Positions 11,775-23,017 of a DNA stretch of 64,000 nucleotides are shown in pieces; the first letter of the stretch is position 1, and every line of letters begins with the position of its first letter. The stretch is from Granulosicoccus sp. (GTDB lineage Bacteria; Pseudomonadota; Gammaproteobacteria; Granulosicoccales; Granulosicoccaceae), in assembly GCA_023301725.1 (NCBI GenBank), contig JALZUD010000017.1:1-64000 (forward strand). Reading direction: 5' to 3'. A model generated the notes under the pieces. It saw only the letters and a program-made list of their open reading frames with translations, did not search any database and had not been told where the DNA came from. A program made the translations under genes and the position numbers.

Positions 11775-12989
11775 CTATTCAATACGCACACGGCCACGCA
11801 CCGAATTATTCTCACGATTTGCTGACTGCACAGACATATTTAATGAGCCGCGTTCTTTCAATTCTGATTTCAACGCATCCAAAGTCGGCACATCATCGGT
11901 GTTCAGATCCAGATCAAACCTGCCATTTCTGTAACCGATAGTGCGCAGTACGGTCTGCGGCTGCGTTGACAGACTGCCAGCAATTTGCGCTAAACGACTG
12001 GTAAAGCCATCGTTATTGACTGCCCCAATGTTTTCAAGCGCTGACTGCACTTGACGTCTTGGTCGTTGCATGCGGGCATCTGGCAAGGCTTCTTTGAACG
12101 CTTCGCTAATGTTGACATCAAGTGCATCTTTTTGTTTTTCTAACGAACTTAACTCTAGCCACTTGCCAGCGAACAGCAACGCAAAGACACAGGCTGCGAG
12201 TATTGCCGTGGCTCGCCATGGCTTCCACGTATTATCAAAATTGCGCTTGATATTGAAGTCACCCTGCATCAAATTGACACGTGGCGCAGACGCCAAGCCA
12301 CTGCTGTACAACGCTAGGCGGTGATCAACTTGCCTGATTTCGAGCTCCATACCGGCTGGCACGTTAAATTTGTTATCAGCATGGGTACTGAACGCCACCA
12401 AAGACACAGGGCCATCTGAATCGTTGCCACCTAACGCACCTTCAATCATCATGCTAGCCATTTCAGTGTCGGTGGCAAAACCTGTGTAGTCAGCCAAACG
12501 CACAACCGCACGGCCATGATCGAGCAACGCACTCCAGACATGCATTTCGGGGGTAGCTGATGTCAACACTGGCAGGGCAAGAGTTTCAGGCACAATCTCA
12601 GAGGGACGCAGACCCGCCTGGGCGCAGAGCTCGGTAATTTGCTCCATGACGTCCAGACTAATAACCACTACGGGGTATTCATCGTCGCGGGTCTTTACGC
12701 CTAATGCAAAATGCAGATCATCGATATCATCTGCCACCTGCTCTTCCAGCACGTAAGGTACAGCTTGCTGGGCACGCGCCAACGAGCCACCGGGAACGCT
12801 AGCTTGTGTAAGCAGGACATCATCAGCGGGCAAGATAAGTATGCAACGACGCCCGTCGACACTATCGGCCGCCTCGCGCAAGCTTCCTTCGCTCACAGGC
12901 GTAGTTAGAGCACCGTTGTCGTCAGAGGTTGCCCACTGAACATTGTCCTCTCCGATCAGAGGCATATAAATAATGACGTGTTTAGACAC
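11775..12989 (-). CDS. gspL: Type II secretion system protein GspL
   Basis: GspL links the cytoplasmic ATPase GspE to the membrane platform. The 404-residue protein has an actin-like cytoplasmic domain (about 1-235), the conserved pre-membrane motif NLMQGDF (239-245), one membrane helix (about 260-277), and a periplasmic C-terminal domain ending in a cluster of short strands. Length is normal. It lies 86 bp after gspK and 63 bp before gspM, slightly looser spacing than the rest of the operon. Confidence 0.92.
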   Translation of the reverse strand: MSKHVIIYMPLIGEDNVQWATSDDNGALTTPVSEGSLREAADSVDGRRCILILPADDVLLTQASVPGGSLARAQQAVPYVLEEQVADDIDDLHFALGVKTRDDEYPVVVISLDVMEQITELCAQAGLRPSEIVPETLALPVLTSATPEMHVWSALLDHGRAVVRLADYTGFATDTEMASMMIEGALGGNDSDGPVSLVAFSTHADNKFNVPAGMELEIRQVDHRLALYSSGLASAPRVNLMQGDFNIKRNFDNTWKPWRATAILAACVFALLFAGKWLELSSLEKQKDALDVNISEAFKEALPDARMQRPRRQVQSALENIGAVNNDGFTSRLAQIAGSLSTQPQTVLRTIGYRNGRFDLDLNTDDVPTLDALKSELKERGSLNMSVQSANRENNSVRGRVRIE

Positions 12990-13075
12990 GATGTTTCCTA
13001 AAGTTACTGTTCGGTTACGCAGATTACAAATCTACTAACAAAAGTGGATATAAATAAGATTTGCTACGTTATTCG

Positions 13076-14179
13076 CTACAGGGTATCGCGGGAACGATAC
13101 AGCACGCGAGTCTGACCCGCACCATCACGCTCAAGCAAGGTAAATTGAGACAATGTAATACCTTCAGCCTCCACATCGATACGAACCTGAAAATAGTTTG
13201 ATCTCACATCATAGGCGACATCGGCAACAATTGCCTCCTCGGACGACAGTGGCACCTCAGCGGTGAAGGCATCTGCACTCTCATAGGGCGTAACGTCTCG
13301 CGCATTTCCTTCCAGCGTTTCCGGGGCATCTTCAGCATCCAAGTCAAAAATATCCTCACACTCAGGGTAGTCCTCATAGGCGCCTGTATCCCAACGGGAC
13401 AACGAGGCGGCAATAGGCTTCACTTCATCGGACAGTGACGCCAATACCTCGGGTGTGGCGGTATTGACATTCACTGGTGTGGGCCCTGAAATAGTTGGCA
13501 GTGCAGAGATATGCGGTAACAACAGCTCGTAATCCTCTGTTTCTTCCTCCACCGCACTGCTAAAGCCCCTAATCAGTTGCAGCTCACTCACACTGACGAT
13601 AGGCGAATTTGCTGTTCGATAACCCACCTCCAACGACGTGTAGTACTCATCTTCTGCGCCATTGGGGTCTGTGAAATTAATATCGCTATCCAGCCAATCA
13701 ACCACCGCATCAACTTTTATGGGATCAATGTTAAGTTCTTGCAATAGCCGTGCAAACTGCTGCCTGTATGCAGGCACAACAACACCCTCGGGATCAACGA
13801 GGTTGTTTAGATTGAACCGACCCTGCATATCGATAACACAGCCTTTGATTGACGCATTGTCCATAGGCACAGGCGGAATGGTCTGCGCCCAGTCATCGTC
13901 CAGTGAATCGCTGTTGCTACGCAACTCGTCTTGAAAATCACGATACAACAGTGCAGCCGCGAACCGCTCACCGCTGATACCCAGTGATCGCGCTTGCTGG
14001 ATAAGCCCCTCGTTGCGCTCACGCTGCAAGTCCAGCTGTTGAGAACTGGTTATCGACACCATGGTTATAGTGCCCAACGCCAGAACGAGCACAGCCGTCA
14101 AGATAGCCACACCACGCTGCCTCGTGGGTTGTTGTGTGGCTAGGTAGGAGCCTTGATGTCTATGACTAAACATTATCAT
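13076..14179 (-). CDS. gspK: Type II secretion system minor pseudopilin GspK
   Basis: GspK caps the pseudopilus tip with GspI and GspJ. The 367-residue protein has a prepilin-type leader ending at Gly23, then VAILTAVLVLALGT, without the Glu at position +5, as usual for GspK. The large globular domain contains the expected segments GRFNLNNLVD, VVDWLDSD and PVNVNTATPEVLASL. Its ATG overlaps the gspJ stop (ATGA); the alternative ATG at 14173 would shorten it by two residues. Confidence 0.95.
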   Translation of the reverse strand: MIMFSHRHQGSYLATQQPTRQRGVAILTAVLVLALGTITMVSITSSQQLDLQRERNEGLIQQARSLGISGERFAAALLYRDFQDELRSNSDSLDDDWAQTIPPVPMDNASIKGCVIDMQGRFNLNNLVDPEGVVVPAYRQQFARLLQELNIDPIKVDAVVDWLDSDINFTDPNGAEDEYYTSLEVGYRTANSPIVSVSELQLIRGFSSAVEEETEDYELLLPHISALPTISGPTPVNVNTATPEVLASLSDEVKPIAASLSRWDTGAYEDYPECEDIFDLDAEDAPETLEGNARDVTPYESADAFTAEVPLSSEEAIVADVAYDVRSNYFQVRIDVEAEGITLSQFTLLERDGAGQTRVLYRSRDTL

Positions 14180-14898
14180 CCTGGCAAGGCAAACAGGCGT
14201 GTCACACGACCGTAATCCTGCAGTTCCAGATTGAATTCGATAGCAGCGGGTATTCCAGGCTCTGTTTCATCAGGCGGTGGCCACGTGTCGTTCCACTCAC
14301 CGTCGGTATCGAGAAACCGTAAACTCATGTCCTCCACGCCACTGAGCAATTGCCGCCTACGAGCAGGCTCCTCGTTAACCGTGTCTAGGTGATACCAGTA
14401 CTGCCTGATCAGTTTGTCCTCTTCCAGCGAGTAGGCAACGCGTTGTAAATTGGAACGCACGGGTGATACATCCGCAGCTGGGTTTGCCCAACCTGCACGC
14501 GTCAGTTCCAGCAAATTCTGTCCTTCTATGTTGACTTGTAAGGGCGCAAGCTCCGAATCGAATGCAGATCGTACCGATCTATCAGCAATTTGAGTCACAT
14601 CTTCAGCCATCCAGTAAAACGTACGCTGAAGCTCAGCCAAGCGCGTTGACTGGTTATCGATGCCCTCGCGAATAGCGTTGATCTGGAACAACATCTGAAA
14701 AGCGGCAGTGCCCAGAATGGCGAGTAAAAACATGGCCACCAACAGTTCGATCAGAGTAAAGCCTGCCGCACTCTTGCGCGTTGCTCTGCTTGCAATTCTG
14801 TTTGTAGCTATTGATGGCACCGCGGCAAGCGCATTTGCGTCCAAGCTTGCACCCACAATGCCGATCGCACTCTTACCTGAGTGATATCCACCCATCAC
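14176..14898 (-). CDS. gspJ: Type II secretion system minor pseudopilin GspJ
   Basis: The 240-residue protein carries a prepilin peptidase site AAG|FTLIELLVAM with Glu at +5, then the GspJ-type globular domain (QRTFYWMAEDVTQIADR, RVAYSLEEDKLIRQYW). The leader before the cleavage point is 46 residues, much longer than the usual 6-25, so the true start may lie further in, although no internal ATG is present in the leader beyond codon 2. Overlaps gspI and gspK by 4 bp each. Confidence 0.92.
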   Translation of the reverse strand: MMGGYHSGKSAIGIVGASLDANALAAVPSIATNRIASRATRKSAAGFTLIELLVAMFLLAILGTAAFQMLFQINAIREGIDNQSTRLAELQRTFYWMAEDVTQIADRSVRSAFDSELAPLQVNIEGQNLLELTRAGWANPAADVSPVRSNLQRVAYSLEEDKLIRQYWYHLDTVNEEPARRRQLLSGVEDMSLRFLDTDGEWNDTWPPPDETEPGIPAAIEFNLELQDYGRVTRLFALPG

Positions 14899-15413
14899 TG
14901 AATAGCGCCTTCATCAGTGGACGCGCCTTGTCTTAGGGCAGGATTCCCAACGATGCCAGTTACGGTGTACGTGTAGTTATCTTCGTCTTTAACCAGTCTG
15001 ACTTCCACATCGACACGGCGTAAATCAGGATCGGCAACCGCTTGCGTGCGAGTACGCACATACCAGGTGATATTTCCCATCTCTACTTCTTTATTGGTTG
15101 TACCGTTCGCAGGCCATGCCGGAACACTTTGTAGCTCCGCTAGTGCGTTACTGGCAACCCATCGACCGAATTCACGTTCTCGAAGATAGTCTGCTCGCCA
15201 CGTACTGGCAGCAGCAGAAGCCACCAGTGCTCCACAACCCACTGCAATGATAGTCATTGCCACCAGGATTTCTATTAGCGTAAAACCTGATTGCTTTTGG
15301 CGGTTGTGCGCCGACAATACGCAAGTTAGACGGAAGCGGGGCAAAGAGCCAGGTTGAACCGCACTAAAGCGCGCTTGCCGTTTCTTATATATGGCATCTG
15401 TTGTCATAGTCAT
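14895..15413 (-). CDS. gspI: Type II secretion system minor pseudopilin GspI
   Basis: A small 172-residue pseudopilin with site QSG|FTLIEILVAM (Glu at +5) and the GspI pattern ASNALAELQSVPAWP, followed by YVRTRTQAVADPDLRRVDVEV. It forms the tip complex with GspJ and GspK. The leader is 43 residues; a TTG at codon 33 (15317) would give a standard 11-residue leader, but its ribosome-binding site is poor. Overlaps gspH and gspJ by 4 bp each. Confidence 0.92.
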   Translation of the reverse strand: MTMTTDAIYKKRQARFSAVQPGSLPRFRLTCVLSAHNRQKQSGFTLIEILVAMTIIAVGCGALVASAAASTWRADYLREREFGRWVASNALAELQSVPAWPANGTTNKEVEMGNITWYVRTRTQAVADPDLRRVDVEVRLVKDEDNYTYTVTGIVGNPALRQGASTDEGAIQ

Positions 15414-16027
15414 GAACCTGAGAGCTGTTGCACGGTGACTGGGAACAAATCACCCGAAGACACCTCGTACTGAAATTCCTGCCCTGTGTCGCTAATCAGG
15501 ATACGAAAATCCGGAATAATTTCGCCATTGGATAAGAAAATAATGTGCGGTTGTAATGGATTTTCGTCGGTTGCATCGCTGAGCTCATCAATCAGATTTT
15601 CCAGAACAATGGGCAAACCAGAAATATCGACGATCATCTCCAGAGCCACTTCAGGCGCTCGAAAACGCAGCTGCTCATCCTCGAATATCTGCCATTCCTC
15701 CTCGTCCTCTTCATTTTTAAGAAGAACATAGAAGCTGTAGGAATCGGGGTGGAATCGAATGCCGAATTGTTGACGCGAATACACTGCCTGATCTGAAGCC
15801 AGCTGCATCAGTAAACCAGTGCGCCGCGCCTCGTTGCTCATGCTCTTGCCAACATTCCTGAACTCAACACTGATAACAACAACACCAAGAATGATGGCCA
15901 CTATTGCCACAGTCACCAAAAGCTCGATAAGAGTGAATCCACGCGCCAAAGGCGCGCGAGCAGCTTGTGAGGCGTTAAATTGATCAACATGCTTACGCCT
16001 GAATTGCATAGCGTTTAGTCTATTCAC
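15410..16027 (-). CDS. gspH: Type II secretion system minor pseudopilin GspH
   Basis: The 205-residue protein has prepilin site ARG|FTLIELLVTVAIVAI after a 30-residue leader and the GspH-like domain (NEARRTGLLMQLASDQAVYSR, then RFHPDSYSFY). The first start codon is a GTG at 16027; an ATG at 16009 is an alternative. GspH is a minor pseudopilin of the secretion pseudopilus. It follows gspG by 40 bp and overlaps gspI by 4 bp. Confidence 0.9.
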   Translation of the reverse strand: MNRLNAMQFRRKHVDQFNASQAARAPLARGFTLIELLVTVAIVAIILGVVVISVEFRNVGKSMSNEARRTGLLMQLASDQAVYSRQQFGIRFHPDSYSFYVLLKNEEDEEEWQIFEDEQLRFRAPEVALEMIVDISGLPIVLENLIDELSDATDENPLQPHIIFLSNGEIIPDFRILISDTGQEFQYEVSSGDLFPVTVQQLSGS

Positions 16028-16067
16028 ACCTTTTTAGCCTGTAAGCGAAAAAAACGGCAGCTGTGGT

Positions 16068-16526
16068 TTATGAGGCGTCGAGTGAGCTAATGTCGGCATC
16101 GAAACCTTCACCACCTTCCACACCATCATTACCTAAAGAGATGATCTCGAAGCGTCCATCTTCACTAAGGTACAGATAATCGCGCCCCCAAGGATCCTTG
16201 TTCAGCTTTTGCACATAACCACCCGATTTCCAGTTGCCAGGCTCAGGATCACCACTAGGCCGTACGACCAGGGATTCGAGACCTTGCTCGGTCGAAGGGT
16301 AGTTAAAATTGTCCAGCCTGTACAAACCCAGCGCGGCTGAATAATTGCCAATATCGGTTTTCGCCCGCACCACTCTGGCTTCATTCGGCCGATCCATGAT
16401 TAACGGCACTACAGCTGCGCCCAGAATAGCTATGATAGCGACCACCACCATAATTTCGATTAAGGTGAAACCACCTTGTTTATGCAACTTTTTCACAATA
16501 TTCAGCTGTACTTTCTTGTTGCCCAT
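16068..16526 (-). CDS. gspG: Type II secretion system major pseudopilin GspG
   Basis: GspG is the main subunit of the secretion pseudopilus. From the ATG at 16526 it has 152 residues, with leader ending at Gly19 and mature N-terminus FTLIEIMVVVAIIAILGA (Glu at +5). Signature segments are TDIGNYSAALGLYRLDNFNYPSTEQGL, DPWGRDYLY and the calcium-site loop LGNDGVEGGEG. This start was chosen because a gagagag Shine-Dalgarno lies 8 bp upstream; the frame extends to 16646 but the added residues are not pilin-like. Heads the gspG-N run. No gspC, D, E or F is in the window. Confidence 0.95.
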   Translation of the reverse strand: MGNKKVQLNIVKKLHKQGGFTLIEIMVVVAIIAILGAAVVPLIMDRPNEARVVRAKTDIGNYSAALGLYRLDNFNYPSTEQGLESLVVRPSGDPEPGNWKSGGYVQKLNKDPWGRDYLYLSEDGRFEIISLGNDGVEGGEGFDADISSLDAS

Positions 16527-16612
16527 AAGGCCGCTCTCTCTCATTTTTCTAGGATTTACACTACATCTTTGGCAGAACAATACCACTGCCTTTACGACCA
16601 AATACTCACCCA

Positions 16613-17233
16613 ATGATTCCCAAAAAAAATAAGTTCTGGTCCTCAAAAGCCTATCTGCTGGTCATTGTTCTGGCCTTAATGTGCATTGCCTTGCAATACA
16701 CAGGCCTTGCAGACACGCTTGCCTATGAAAGGAGCTTGATCGCAAACGGCCAGTGGTGGTTATTACTGAGCGGAAACTTTGTGCATCTGGGAATCAATCA
16801 TCTCTGGATGAACATGGCAGGTCTGGCTTTGGTGGTGGCGTTGGTCTGGAAACACTACAGTGCTACGCAGTGGCTTACGTTAATACTCCTGTGTAGTGTA
16901 GGCGTCGGTACTGGAATCTGGTTCTTCAACACTGAAATTCAAGGCTATGTCGGATTTTCAGGCGCACTTCACGGACTGATTATCGCAGGGGGGTTGGCCG
17001 ATCTGCGCATTTATCCCCGTTCTGCGGGTTTGCTGTTAATTCTGATCGTAGGTAAGCTGGGCTGGGAGCAGTTTAGCGGTGCTCTGCCCGGTAGTGAATC
17101 AGTTGCCGGCGGCTATGTTCTGGTCGATGCGCATCTCTACGGTGCGATCACCGGTGCTCTTGTAACACCAGCTTTGCTCATTCAAAATCATCTCAACAGA
17201 AAAAACAAAGCAAGCGATGACGCTCCAGGCTAG
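16613..17233 (+). CDS. rrtA: Rhombosortase (rhomboid-family intramembrane protease)
   Basis: The 206-residue polytopic membrane protein has rhomboid hallmarks: a GNFVHLGINHLWMNMAG segment (H-x3-HL-x2-N), the nucleophile motif GFSGALHG (Ser116) and a catalytic histidine in DAHLYGA (His174). The combination GxSGxLHG plus short six-helix size fits the rhombosortase subfamily, known to process proteins with a C-terminal GlyGly-CTERM signal and often co-occurring with type II secretion. It is divergent from gspG with 86 bp between, which supports that link. No GlyGly-CTERM protein is visible in the window. Confidence 0.9.
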   Translation: MIPKKNKFWSSKAYLLVIVLALMCIALQYTGLADTLAYERSLIANGQWWLLLSGNFVHLGINHLWMNMAGLALVVALVWKHYSATQWLTLILLCSVGVGTGIWFFNTEIQGYVGFSGALHGLIIAGGLADLRIYPRSAGLLLILIVGKLGWEQFSGALPGSESVAGGYVLVDAHLYGAITGALVTPALLIQNHLNRKNKASDDAPG

Positions 17234-18249
17234 CTTTTCGTCATCTTCGCCAGCTCCGCTAGCAACCTTGCCGGTATCTCAACACCCTGCGCGACACTTT
17301 TTTCGCGTTGTTCATAGCGTCGCTGCGATGGTAGACGGGTACCAGGCATGTCGAGCACCTGAGAAAACAAGAGTTCGGCGCGCTGCAAGTAGGCAGTTGA
17401 GCCAAATTTACTGGGGTCGATAGCCAGCAGCAATTCTCCACCAAAAGGCGCGCCCACCTTGTGTGTGTCCTGATTGCTCGAATCAACACTGAAGTTCTCA
17501 CCAATAAGCGCACCCGCTAGCAACTCAACCATTAATGCGATAGAGGCACCCTTATGACCGCCAAAGGGAAGTTGCGCGCCAGCAAGCGCCGCATCAGGAT
17601 CGTTGGTTGGTCGTCCTTGATCATCAATCGCCCAGCCATCGGGTATCGGCTGCCCATCACGCTGATGCAACTGGATTTCACCACGAGCGCTGGCACTTGA
17701 CGCCTGATCGAAGACCAGTGGAGGCATTGCCTCGCGCGGGAAACCAAAGGCCATGGGGTTAGTTCCAAACAGCGGCCTTGTACCACCAGCAGGTGTGACG
17801 TAGGCGTTCGATGTGGTAAAGGCAAAAGCCACCAGGCCCTGTCGCGCCAAACATTCTACTTCAGGCCACAACGCCGCAATGTTGTAGACGTTATGGATTG
17901 CCAGAGCCGCTGTGCCGTGCATTCGCGCCTTTTTGACCAAAGCTGGCAAGCCCACATCCAACGCCTGCGGGCAGAACCCGTTCTTGCCATCAACATGCAC
18001 GACGGTTGAATCGTCTACTTGCAGTGAAGGCACAGCATTCGCGTCTGCTGATGGATTTTGCAACGCGTTGATATAGAACGACACACGAAACAAGCCATGC
18101 GATGTACAACCGTCACGCTCCGCCGCCGTTACACTACTGGCTATGCTGTTGGCCTGCGCTCGAGCAAACCCATTGGATTCCAGAGCAGTTAGAGCCAGAT
18201 GATGAATCTCATCCAGATTCAAGCAGGTAGTGGGTTGTTCGTTACTCAT
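17230..18249 (-). CDS. Malate/L-lactate dehydrogenase-family oxidoreductase
   Basis: The 339-residue protein belongs to the LdhA/MDH type 2 (NAD(P)-dependent, non-Rossmann) family that reduces 2-oxoacids or delta-1-pyrroline/piperideine carboxylates. Visible signatures are HGLFRVSFYINAL, GTNPMAFGFP, and PFGGHKGASIALMVELLAGAL. The ATG at 18249 was preferred over one at 18303, because the extra 18 residues do not fit the family. Its substrate cannot be read from sequence. The 3' end overlaps rrtA convergently by 4 bp. Confidence 0.88.
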   Translation of the reverse strand: MSNEQPTTCLNLDEIHHLALTALESNGFARAQANSIASSVTAAERDGCTSHGLFRVSFYINALQNPSADANAVPSLQVDDSTVVHVDGKNGFCPQALDVGLPALVKKARMHGTAALAIHNVYNIAALWPEVECLARQGLVAFAFTTSNAYVTPAGGTRPLFGTNPMAFGFPREAMPPLVFDQASSASARGEIQLHQRDGQPIPDGWAIDDQGRPTNDPDAALAGAQLPFGGHKGASIALMVELLAGALIGENFSVDSSNQDTHKVGAPFGGELLLAIDPSKFGSTAYLQRAELLFSQVLDMPGTRLPSQRRYEQREKSVAQGVEIPARLLAELAKMTKS

Positions 18250-19448: not shown

Positions 19449-21461
19449 CTAACGCTGCTCAATAGCGCCAGCGGGTATACGCACGTCGAATGACGTCCCC
19501 ACACCCAGCTCTGAACTGACCAGCAATTCCCAGCCATGCGCATTACAGACCTTCTTACAGATTGACAAACCCAATCCGGTGCCCACCACGCCACCTATGT
19601 GGAACCGTTCGAACGGGGTAAATATTCTGTCTAGATACTGCTCTTCAATACCAATTCCATTGTCTTGCACTCGTATGCTAATCATCCTTGGTAGCTCACC
19701 CTGCACGTCGCTAACAGAAACCTCAATTTTTGCAGATGTGCCAGGCCTGCGGTATTTCAAGGCATTTAGTAGCAAATTTCTGAACAACTGGGATACGCCC
19801 ATTGCGTTAGCTGATATTTTTGGTAACGTATCCACATGCAATTGACCTTGCGCATCAGCTACCGCGAGTTCCATCTCATCCCAGACATCCTTAAGCACTA
19901 CATTAAGATCCACTAACTCATAGACCTGATTAGCACTGCCAGATCGGGAGTAGGCCAATGTTGCCCTAATAAGATCGCTCATGCGTTGAGATGAACCGCG
20001 TATAGAGTCCAGATAATAGCGGCCGTCACCCTCTATTACAGAGCCATAATCTTCTTCGAGAAGATCACTAAATTGTCGCATTTTACGCAAGGGCTCCTGT
20101 AAATCATGTGAGGCAACATGCGCAAACTGCTGTAGCTCCTCATTGGCTTGCAGCAGGTTATTGTTAACCTGCTTCATTAGATATTCTTGCTCTAACTTAC
20201 CTTTTTGAGCCATGTCCAATTGAGCAACTGCCGCGGACAGCGTGTTCAGCTCACTAAGAAAATAATGTTGCCGATGCTTAGGGAAACGCTCACTACCCAC
20301 GTCCGAGATGCGTTGCGAAATATCCACAATTGGCTGCACAGTTCTTCGATACAACAGCCAGTAGCCAACGGCCGCTAATACCAACATGGCCAAAAAGCTA
20401 ATACCCAACAGTTGAAAACGATACTGGCGTACAGAATTTAACGTAAGCACGGCTAACGAATTGACACTGTCACTAGACACTGATCGCAGTGAATCGGTAA
20501 TCTCAAAAATGCGTGTAGTACGCAAGCTCAGAGAATCATTTAGTGCAAGTTGGCTTTCTCTGCGAAGCAATGCTTCGACCTGCATCGCAAAGAGACCATC
20601 TTGCCGACCAAGACGGGCTCGCAGCTCGCGAATAGATGCAATCATCCCCGCAGATACACTCTTGTCACTGATGTAAATAGTGCGGGCTATCAAAGCGCTG
20701 AATAGCAAATCCCTATTCTGCGCAGCCTGTGTAATCCGCGTAGAGCTGTTCAACAAAGGAAGACGCTCGACGATAGCCGCAAGCGAGACAAGATCCTGAA
20801 TCATCAGTAGATAATCCTGCAGTTCAAGATTACCTTTGTCGTATGTCAGCATTTGCTGCGCAAAGTTGGGTACATCGTCGCTATCGGCGAATGCCGTGCC
20901 TGATGGAGCAAATTGTGTCATGACATCACTGGCCACTAGCAATTCATTGCCAACGGTCACTATCCCAGCTTGCATGGTCTTCTCTAACTGTTGCAAGAAC
21001 ATCAGTACGGAAAGTTTTTCGTTTTCGATAACTCCTTGCAATCGGAGTTCTGCTGCCTTTGATTTCTGAAGATCCATGATCGCGGAGCTTATCGACGATA
21101 TCTCACCAATAAGCTGAACTTGCTCTTCAGATGACTCAAGCTCAAGCAATGCAGAAGATTCTCTAACATGCAGCATGGTGTCATCCAGTTGCTCACGTCG
21201 TAGATCGAGCTCTTGTGTGTTCTTGGCAATACTCAGCAACAGCCCCTGAGATTGCAACCCTGCAGTAGCTGACGTAAGCTTGTGAGCTGCATCAAGGCTC
21301 GGCAATAAATCAAACGCCATTTCCTGTTCGCGCTCGAGCATCGTTGAGCTGTAAAACCACACGATAGAGACCAGAGCAATAAATACACAGGCCACCCCTA
21401 TCAGGCAAAAAAGAAATGCACTAAGTAACGTCGCGCTTGGTCCGTCTTTAGGCTGCCGCAT
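19449..21461 (-). CDS. Membrane sensor histidine kinase with large helical periplasmic domain
   Basis: A 670-residue kinase. It has a membrane helix at about 13-37, a long periplasmic domain (38-347) that looks wholly helical, a second helix (348-371), a HAMP-like linker to about 425, a HisKA domain with the phospho-acceptor His452 in VASHDLQEPLRKM, and an HATPase with N-box FRNLLLNALKYR, QDNGIGIEE and GTGLGLSICKK. No receiver domain is fused and no response regulator is nearby. The periplasmic domain layout recalls TorS-type sensors, which read a periplasmic binding protein. A binding-protein gene starts divergently 128 bp away, which suggests a functional pair. Confidence 0.9.
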   Translation of the reverse strand: MRQPKDGPSATLLSAFLFCLIGVACVFIALVSIVWFYSSTMLEREQEMAFDLLPSLDAAHKLTSATAGLQSQGLLLSIAKNTQELDLRREQLDDTMLHVRESSALLELESSEEQVQLIGEISSISSAIMDLQKSKAAELRLQGVIENEKLSVLMFLQQLEKTMQAGIVTVGNELLVASDVMTQFAPSGTAFADSDDVPNFAQQMLTYDKGNLELQDYLLMIQDLVSLAAIVERLPLLNSSTRITQAAQNRDLLFSALIARTIYISDKSVSAGMIASIRELRARLGRQDGLFAMQVEALLRRESQLALNDSLSLRTTRIFEITDSLRSVSSDSVNSLAVLTLNSVRQYRFQLLGISFLAMLVLAAVGYWLLYRRTVQPIVDISQRISDVGSERFPKHRQHYFLSELNTLSAAVAQLDMAQKGKLEQEYLMKQVNNNLLQANEELQQFAHVASHDLQEPLRKMRQFSDLLEEDYGSVIEGDGRYYLDSIRGSSQRMSDLIRATLAYSRSGSANQVYELVDLNVVLKDVWDEMELAVADAQGQLHVDTLPKISANAMGVSQLFRNLLLNALKYRRPGTSAKIEVSVSDVQGELPRMISIRVQDNGIGIEEQYLDRIFTPFERFHIGGVVGTGLGLSICKKVCNAHGWELLVSSELGVGTSFDVRIPAGAIEQR

Positions 21462-21589
21462 TATATTTCACGCCTCCATTCGCGTGGCTTGAATCATGCA
21501 AAACCAACAAGGCTGCAAGATCGATATTACGTAACCTGAAGCACTTTCGTTGCTAACCCTCAGCATCGGATTCAACCAGCAAAAATATC

Positions 21590-23017
21590 ATGAATACAAC
21601 ACGACGTAGTTTCATTAAGACCCTAATTGCAGGAAGCATATTACCGGCGACGCCAAGCCACAGTGCAGCACAATTCGCACCATGGTATGAATCTCTGGCC
21701 AACAAAGCCAGAGAAATTTCAGATGGGCGATCTTTACAGGTACTCATCCCCAATGGCTCGCGCGCCAATATTCAAGCGGCAACGGCGCTTTTCACTGAAA
21801 TGAGCGGTGTACCGTGCAGCATTGAAGAAGTGCCTATTAACGATATCAACCTAGAGTTAATACTGCGCTCAAACGCTGGAGAAACCTCTGTTGATCTCGC
21901 ACTACCCGCCACCTTTGGTCTGGCAGATCTTGTACAAGCAAACGCTATCACCAATCTGGATGAGTTCGTCGCGCGCCACGAACCTGACGGATTTCGTGAC
22001 GATTACCTTTACCAGAAAGGCGATAAACACAATGGTTCAACCTACGGTTATCAAACAGATGGTGACGTTTATCTGTTGTTCTACAACAAAGCCATGCTGG
22101 AAGATCCACGCGAACAATCCGCCTATTTTGAATTAACAGGTAAAACTCTCGAACCTGCAACCACGTGGGCTGAACTTGACCGCATGATGGCCTTCTTCCA
22201 CAGACCCAACCAGAATCAATACGGTGGCGCATTATACCGAAACCCAGAATACCCAATATGGGAATGGTGGGCGCGCTTTCATGCGACAGGTAGTTTGCCG
22301 TTTACAGACACTATGCGCCCAAATATCAACAACCAGGCCGCAGTGGATGCACTTGAACAACTAGTTGCAGCTACCTCATCGCAGATCCCGAGCGCTGCAA
22401 GTAACGACATATTCGACAACTGGAAAAGCTATGCCCAAGGCAATATTTTTTGCAATATGGGCTGGGGCGGAACACAAAAATTTCTGCAAACACAAGATCC
22501 TACGCGCGACAACGTCGTTACCAGCTCTCTGCCTGGCCCACCTATGGATGGACGCCCGAGCAAGATGGGCTACTTTAACTGGGGTTGGAACTACACAGTA
22601 AGTTCAGGCTCAACGCAAAAGGAGCTTGCTTATTTACTAGCGCTTTTTTGCACAACTCCCACTGCCTCAACGGTAGCTATTCGCGAGGCAGACGGGTTTT
22701 TCGATCCTTTTAGAGAAAGCCACTATGCTGATGAAACGGTGCAATCAGTTTATGGTGCATCGTTTCTCAAGGCCCAAAAAGAAAGTCTGGGGAACTGTGT
22801 GCCTGACTTATACATGCGCGGTCAAACCAGCTACCTTGATGTACTACGCCAACAAATACTGGCAACTATGGAGGGGGAGTTCAGTGCGCGGGAATCACTG
22901 GATATCTGTGCTCAAAAATGGTCACACATTACTCGCAAACTAGGCCGATCAGAACAGCTGCAGGAATGGAAAAATCTCTTGGCCACTTATCCTTTGGCAT
23001 TTCAGAAGGAACGCTAA
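21590..23017 (+). CDS. Tat-exported extracellular solute-binding protein
   Basis: The 475-residue periplasmic protein begins with a twin-arginine signal (T4-R-R-S-F-I-K10, then a hydrophobic stretch ending near SHSAA). The body resembles family 1 (sugar/MalE-like) binding proteins: VLIPNGSRANIQAAT, DLALPATFGLADL, YGYQTDGDVYLLFYNKAML, and a conserved GWGGTQKF and FNWGWNY region. Known relatives feed ABC transporters, but no permease or ATPase gene lies nearby. Divergence from a histidine kinase gene makes a sensory role plausible. The ligand cannot be assigned. Confidence 0.85.
   Translation: MNTTRRSFIKTLIAGSILPATPSHSAAQFAPWYESLANKAREISDGRSLQVLIPNGSRANIQAATALFTEMSGVPCSIEEVPINDINLELILRSNAGETSVDLALPATFGLADLVQANAITNLDEFVARHEPDGFRDDYLYQKGDKHNGSTYGYQTDGDVYLLFYNKAMLEDPREQSAYFELTGKTLEPATTWAELDRMMAFFHRPNQNQYGGALYRNPEYPIWEWWARFHATGSLPFTDTMRPNINNQAAVDALEQLVAATSSQIPSAASNDIFDNWKSYAQGNIFCNMGWGGTQKFLQTQDPTRDNVVTSSLPGPPMDGRPSKMGYFNWGWNYTVSSGSTQKELAYLLALFCTTPTASTVAIREADGFFDPFRESHYADETVQSVYGASFLKAQKESLGNCVPDLYMRGQTSYLDVLRQQILATMEGEFSARESLDICAQKWSHITRKLGRSEQLQEWKNLLATYPLAFQKER

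Follow-up and report, generated by a model that had tools for sequence, protein, structure and literature searches.

A probable TorT/TorS-like sensory pair in Granulosicoccus built from a different class of solute-binding protein

The divergent genes for a membrane histidine kinase and an extracellular solute-binding protein (SBP) described here probably encode a sensory pair of the TorT/TorS kind in which the SBP is of another class (rough probability 0.78). They lie in the window, the whole 64,000-nucleotide stretch of DNA from a marine Granulosicoccus bacterium that was analysed, which sits on contig 17 of its genome (G000). A TorT/TorS-like arrangement had been proposed in an earlier note and is well supported by the analysis, with binding, ligand and output as predictions. 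The gene pair and its conservation, the predicted sensor fold, the homology of the sensors and the nesting of the SBPs among ABC-linked ones were each established by computation.

The gene pair and the predicted sensor fold

The features of the pair are as follows.

19449..21461, minus strand: membrane histidine kinase, 670 aa, without a receiver domain (ORF, Pfam, orthologues)
19470..19802, minus strand: kinase HATPase_c domain, residues 554-664 (Pfam)
19938..20135, minus strand: kinase HisKA domain, residues 443-508, phospho-acceptor His452 (Pfam)
20355..20411, minus strand: kinase predicted TM helix 2, residues 351-369 (Kyte-Doolittle peak)
20412..21359, minus strand: kinase periplasmic sensor domain, residues 35-350, predicted TorS fold (hydropathy, model, fold matches)
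21360..21416, minus strand: kinase predicted TM helix 1, residues 16-34 (Kyte-Doolittle peak)
21462..21589, no strand: divergent intergenic region between kinase and SBP genes, 128 bp (ORF coordinates)
21590..21667, plus strand: probable Tat signal peptide of the SBP (MNTTRRSFIKTLIAGS...), boundary approximate (sequence; twin arginine invariant in 25/25 kinase-linked SBPs)
21590..23017, plus strand: extracellular SBP, 475 aa, SBP_bac_1, in permease-less surroundings (ORF, Pfam)

Both ORFs were confirmed, diverging across the 128-bp gap that the earlier note had described. That note had also given the SBP gene no ABC permease neighbour, and inspection of the window ORFs by eye, part of them domain-scanned, brought neither a permease nor any other ABC gene near it to notice. 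No torA, torC or torD was noticed by eye adjoining the pair, and no response regulator adjoins the kinase in the window. Neighbouring genes encode an SDR and an Ldh_2 enzyme (Pfam), and a further neighbour is, from its sequence, presumably recG.

HisKA (4.4e-10) and HATPase_c (1.1e-23) were the only domains found in the kinase by Pfam, and the polypeptide stops after HATPase_c. A loop of 316 residues separates the two Kyte-Doolittle peaks (residues 16-34 and 351-369), close to the 310 residues from which a large helical periplasmic domain of TorS-like size had been proposed. Residues 35-350 were modelled from a six-row alignment (the window sequence and L034-L038), and the resulting model, with a mean pLDDT of 85.0 and a pTM of 0.69, was all helix. 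When it was compared with the PDB using Foldseek, the top six rows were all TorS sensor domains (3o1h, 3o1j, 3o1i twice, 3i9y and 3i9w; E 9.4e-8 to 4.2e-5), headed by 3o1h_A (E 9.4e-8, TMq 0.76, TMt 0.88). VIA-align against 3o1i_A gave Z 21.8 (rmsd 2.4 A, 266 residues aligned, 14% identity), a match that covers nearly the whole sensor domain and is clear of the background Z, which is high for helical models, about 14 by the tool's note. The next fold families were McpZ (Z 15.9) and McpS (Z 15.4). The best-matching PDB chains are TorS taken from TorS-TorT complexes, and the two stacked helical bundles of the TorS fold are present in the predicted model. Identity to the TorS structures is 12-16% (VIA-align), and TorS was absent from sensor-profile searches of PDB sequences, with no homology detected at the sequence level. 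On the strength of the model, the periplasmic domain of the kinase is predicted to fold like the TorS sensor.

The SBP matched SBP_bac_1 (PF01547) with 33.8 bits (4.7e-8), above the gathering cut-off of 26, and its PDB profile matches were 1eu8, 9kha, 5ysb and SmoF. Its fold was assigned from these Pfam and PDB profile matches because its own six-row structure model came out at pLDDT 39.5 and was discarded. The N-terminus, MNTTRRSFIK, contains a Tat-like motif (TRRSFIK), of which the twin arginine is invariant across 25 kinase-linked SBPs. The description of a family-1-type SBP with a Tat-like signal was thus upheld, with Tat export putative and read from the motif.

Conservation of the pairing and of the sensor

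An SBP profile (A1) was searched against overlapping genome sets. Of the 48 genomes of the window's family, 12 matched at E<=1e-60; 3 of 369 genomes of its class and 5 of 398 of its phylum matched. A second family, f223 (394 genomes), contained 15 loci in 14 genomes at E<=1e-100, and 5 of 289 genomes of its class matched; f223 comprises several hundred genera, which suggests Rhodobacteraceae. Close relatives of the SBP occur in Granulosicoccus kin and in alphaproteobacteria. At E<=1e-100 there were 31 distinct close loci: 12 from the window's family, 16 from f223, and one each from G236, G1224 and G1335. L087 (G257) and L120 (G1234) were weaker than E 1e-100 and lie outside the 31.

A contig end falls just upstream of the SBP gene in five of the 31 loci (G030, G865, G979, G1335 and G236), leaving 26 that are informative. 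Conservation of the gene pair had been suggested as a check, and in 25 of these 26 the SBP gene faces a divergently encoded kinase that has two TM peaks. The exception is G1224, whose 5.5-kb contig carries an ABC permease and showed no kinase. Among the cut loci, G030 and G865 have a kinase in the expected orientation at the end of another contig, and G236 has a co-directional kinase downstream of the SBP gene. More distant SBP loci, annotated in the same way and mostly with only about 1.5 kb of flank, gave a kinase in 0/24 and an ABC permease in 22/24; 25 such controls were supplied, of which L021 lacked an SBP ORF, and the 24 rows that remained represent 23 distinct places because L016 and L045 coincide. 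The kinase-SBP arrangement is more than chance, because it is found in 25/26 close loci against 0/24 distant ones. It has persisted although the SBPs have diverged (mean pairwise identity 0.45) and the gene neighbourhoods differ. No ABC permease was found within 4 kb of the SBP gene at any of the 25 kinase-linked loci; an ABC ATPase gene lies within that distance in L084, L085 and L111. Failure of the orthologues to co-occur had been named beforehand as evidence against the proposal, and both genes co-occur.

The sensors of 26 kinases (the 25 paired ones and that of G013) measure 278-319 residues. Over the 25 pairs their mean identity is 0.16, against 0.45 for the SBPs. By hhalign, the profile of clade A (the window type) matched the f223 set with a probability of 96.4%, and that of clade B (other Granulosicoccus kin) did so with 98.9%; clade A against clade B directly gave 0.4%. 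By these profile comparisons, in which the f223 set connects clade A to clade B, the sensors of the paired kinases are homologous. SBP distances correlated better with sensor than with kinase-core distances over 14 f223 pairs (r 0.77 versus 0.58) and over five clade B pairs (r 0.81 versus 0.34), with no clear difference in clade A (0.985 versus 0.976); these correlations partly reflect shared species history.

For the reciprocal search a sensor profile (A7) was built from sequences other than those of clade A. It matched at 8 places in the 48 family genomes and at 5 in 149 f223 genomes, and 11 of these 13 are members of kinase-SBP pairs, of which two are split by contig breaks. In f223 the sensor was present in 5 of the 149 genomes, and the SBP in all five of those. 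Related sensor kinases at G016:C1 and G005:C67 have no SBP beside them and adjoin a small exported protein that, from its sequence, looks like a ComEA/HHH protein. SBP-less TorS-like kinases preceded by a ComEA/HHH-like exported protein are found at L135 8594-10537 and L136 8796-10748. G013 has a clade A kinase, and no SBP of this family was detected there, with a contig end nearby; a receiver gene (L059 8480-8962), which we take to be Rcp1-like, occupies the SBP's place upstream of that kinase.

Origin of the binding protein and the proposed signalling route

In two maximum-likelihood trees, the second built without the long branches L045 and L087, the kinase-linked SBPs and those of the cut loci form one group (support 99/91 and 98/92), with weaker support when G236 is left out (86/91 and 80/91). 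The ABC-linked SBP of G1224 is the nearest outgroup, and further ABC-linked SBPs, including those of Phaeobacter, Alisedimentitalea and Rhizobium plasmids, lie outside. A plasmid search with a kinase-linked SBP returned nine records, all below 60% identity; the three examined (H8, H1 and H9) are ABC operons whose SBPs branch outside the kinase-linked group. Clade B SBPs fall among those of f223, away from clade A, a placement that points to a horizontal step, by transfer, in their history. As the pairing recurs in distantly related bacteria, it suggests that a binding protein was recruited from import to sensing. Of the residues that never vary among the 25 kinase-linked SBPs, the G1224 SBP has nearly all, those of the tryptophan-rich stretches at about 291-297 and 329-333 among them, and so it may share their ligand. 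A histidinol-dehydrogenase-family gene adjoins the G1224 gene and was considered as a contextual guide to naming the ligand, for which it is too weak. Genes of that family were seen in the vicinity of ABC-linked SBPs at L118 2590-3876 and L049 10970-12289, and they may hint at the ligand.

An unlikely alternative is that the SBP works for an ABC transporter whose genes lie elsewhere in the genome and that the kinase responds to a different signal, with nothing but a divergent promoter region in common. G1224, a close relative that has a permease and nearly all the invariant residues, agrees with it, as does an excerpt of PMC11113362, in which sbp and kinase neighbours are not always linked and neighbouring genes that did not interact are reported. 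Against it stand the recurrence of the pair in 25/26 informative loci, whose SBPs share a mean identity of 0.45 and whose neighbourhoods differ, and the way in which sensor and SBP distances track each other. The other SBP relatives in the window genome, moreover, show 22-28% identity and belong to ordinary ABC operons with their own permeases; the earlier note had held that finding the binding protein with an ABC permease elsewhere in the genome would speak against the TorT/TorS-like pair, and this was not the case.

ChvE-type proteins both deliver to a transporter and dock on a kinase. A dual role of this kind, with the permeases encoded elsewhere, would suit the ABC-linked ancestry and the conserved invariant residues, and it is about as improbable as separate functions, given that 0/25 kinase-linked SBPs have a permease match within 4 kb (an ATPase gene in the three loci named above) and that no close ABC-linked paralogue was found in the window genome. 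Least likely is direct ligand binding by the helical domain, as in the McpS ligand-binding domain, with the SBP as modulator or scavenger: McpS and McpZ are the next fold matches (Z 15.4-15.9) and related sensors without an adjoining SBP exist (G016 and G005:C67), but TorS scores about 6 Z units higher and is a fold known to act through an SBP, and the SBP pairing is near-universal.

For the preferred TorT/TorS-like pair, the following route is proposed. The SBP, probably derived by a single recruitment from the SBPs of ABC transporters and since then without a permease, would be exported folded via Tat and would bind a small periplasmic solute, probably a carbohydrate-like or acidic polar compound. 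It would then dock on the kinase encoded divergently from it, at the helical periplasmic domain with the TorS fold, and alter the dimeric helical bundle; this change would cross the membrane, and the kinase would change the phosphorylation of a response regulator. The regulator would be the stand-alone receiver next to the kinase in most relatives, and would be encoded elsewhere in the window's lineage.

In 14/25 pairs the kinase gene has a lone receiver (about 120-160 aa) as neighbour on its own strand. Two pairs have a longer receiver protein and one (L084) a receiver on the other strand; the remaining eight, which include all six clade A pairs and with them the window, have none beside the kinase. 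The receiver proteins scanned at these loci contain a receiver domain only (Pfam), and output may therefore proceed via further phosphotransfer or protein contacts. Receivers in the window genome were considered as the regulator of the window kinase: an orphan at G000:C27:37371-37736, presumably Rcp1-like, and a receiver on C23 that has its own kinase. Neither could be assigned.

In five loci a soluble kinase of about 240-280 aa, without TM helices, follows directly after the SBP gene on the same strand, and is possibly a second kinase of the pathway.

Soluble histidine kinase after the SBP gene: L082 10887-11636; L083 8142-8981; L104 7775-8590; L105 8012-8776; L110 7812-8537

Larger relatives were seen at L061, where a CheB-CheR-PAS-receiver protein (12169-15348) and a PAS-GGDEF-EAL protein (15484-18174) are encoded (Pfam) between the SBP gene and a gene assumed to be recG.

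A wider proposal, offered tentatively and at somewhat less than even odds, is that the TorS-type helical sensor is a general SBP docking platform, on which one lineage replaced the TorT-type SBP with an unrelated, Tat-exported, ABC-derived one, spread it between proteobacterial classes, and wired it to lone receivers and, in some members, to a further, soluble kinase encoded in the SBP operon. The pair itself, if borne out, would mean that the sensor fold of TorS does not depend on TorT as partner, and that a kinase sensor is able to change the structural class of its partner. It would also exemplify the conversion of an import protein to signalling, with G1224 as a close ABC-linked outgroup against which docking surfaces could be compared.

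Comparison with known systems

The ABC-transporter SBPs of the SBP_bac_1 class (G1224 and Phaeobacter plasmid pGal_C110) are homologous to the window SBP and share its twin-arginine N-terminus, but are encoded with ABC permeases and not with a kinase. No published account of a TorS-fold kinase paired with an SBP_bac_1 protein was found in the open-licence PMC literature, and an earlier mention is possible. Ruminiclostridium cellulolyticum is Gram-positive, unlike the window organism, and XylFII-LytS differs from the window pair in its types of sensor and SBP. A kinase with a family-1 SBP of its own already has a precedent: according to an excerpt of PMC10384115, the gene for the family-1-type CuaD of R. 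cellulolyticum lies beside two-component genes, and CuaD binds the extracellular part of the sensor CuaS. That sensor was modelled as alpha-beta-alpha sandwiches on long helices, in contrast to the stacked helical bundles predicted for the window sensor. The same excerpt cites XylFII-LytS of Clostridium beijerinckii, in which a signalling SBP is docked on the sensor of a kinase.

TorT/TorS, which senses TMAO in E. coli and Vibrio, resembles the window pair in its all-helical sensor of the TorS fold, predicted here, and in an SBP gene that adjoins the kinase gene, in the window pair without an ABC permease. TorT is a type I, Peripla_BP_4-like periplasmic binding protein, whereas the window SBP falls in the SBP_bac_1 class and carries a Tat-like signal. 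TorS is a hybrid with receiver and HPt domains, both of which the window kinase lacks, and no torA, torC or torD was seen beside the window pair. In Vibrio fluvialis the SBP gene is also divergent from the kinase gene, as stated in an excerpt of PMC10662104. The window pair is TorT/TorS-like by anatomy and is not a Tor system, because its SBP is of another class, its kinase is non-hybrid, no tor genes were seen next to it, the NCBIfam TorS model TIGR02956 (TMAO_torS) scores 100.4 bits on the kinase, below the cut-off of 676.5, and the usual regulator of its relatives is a lone receiver, none of which adjoins it in the window.
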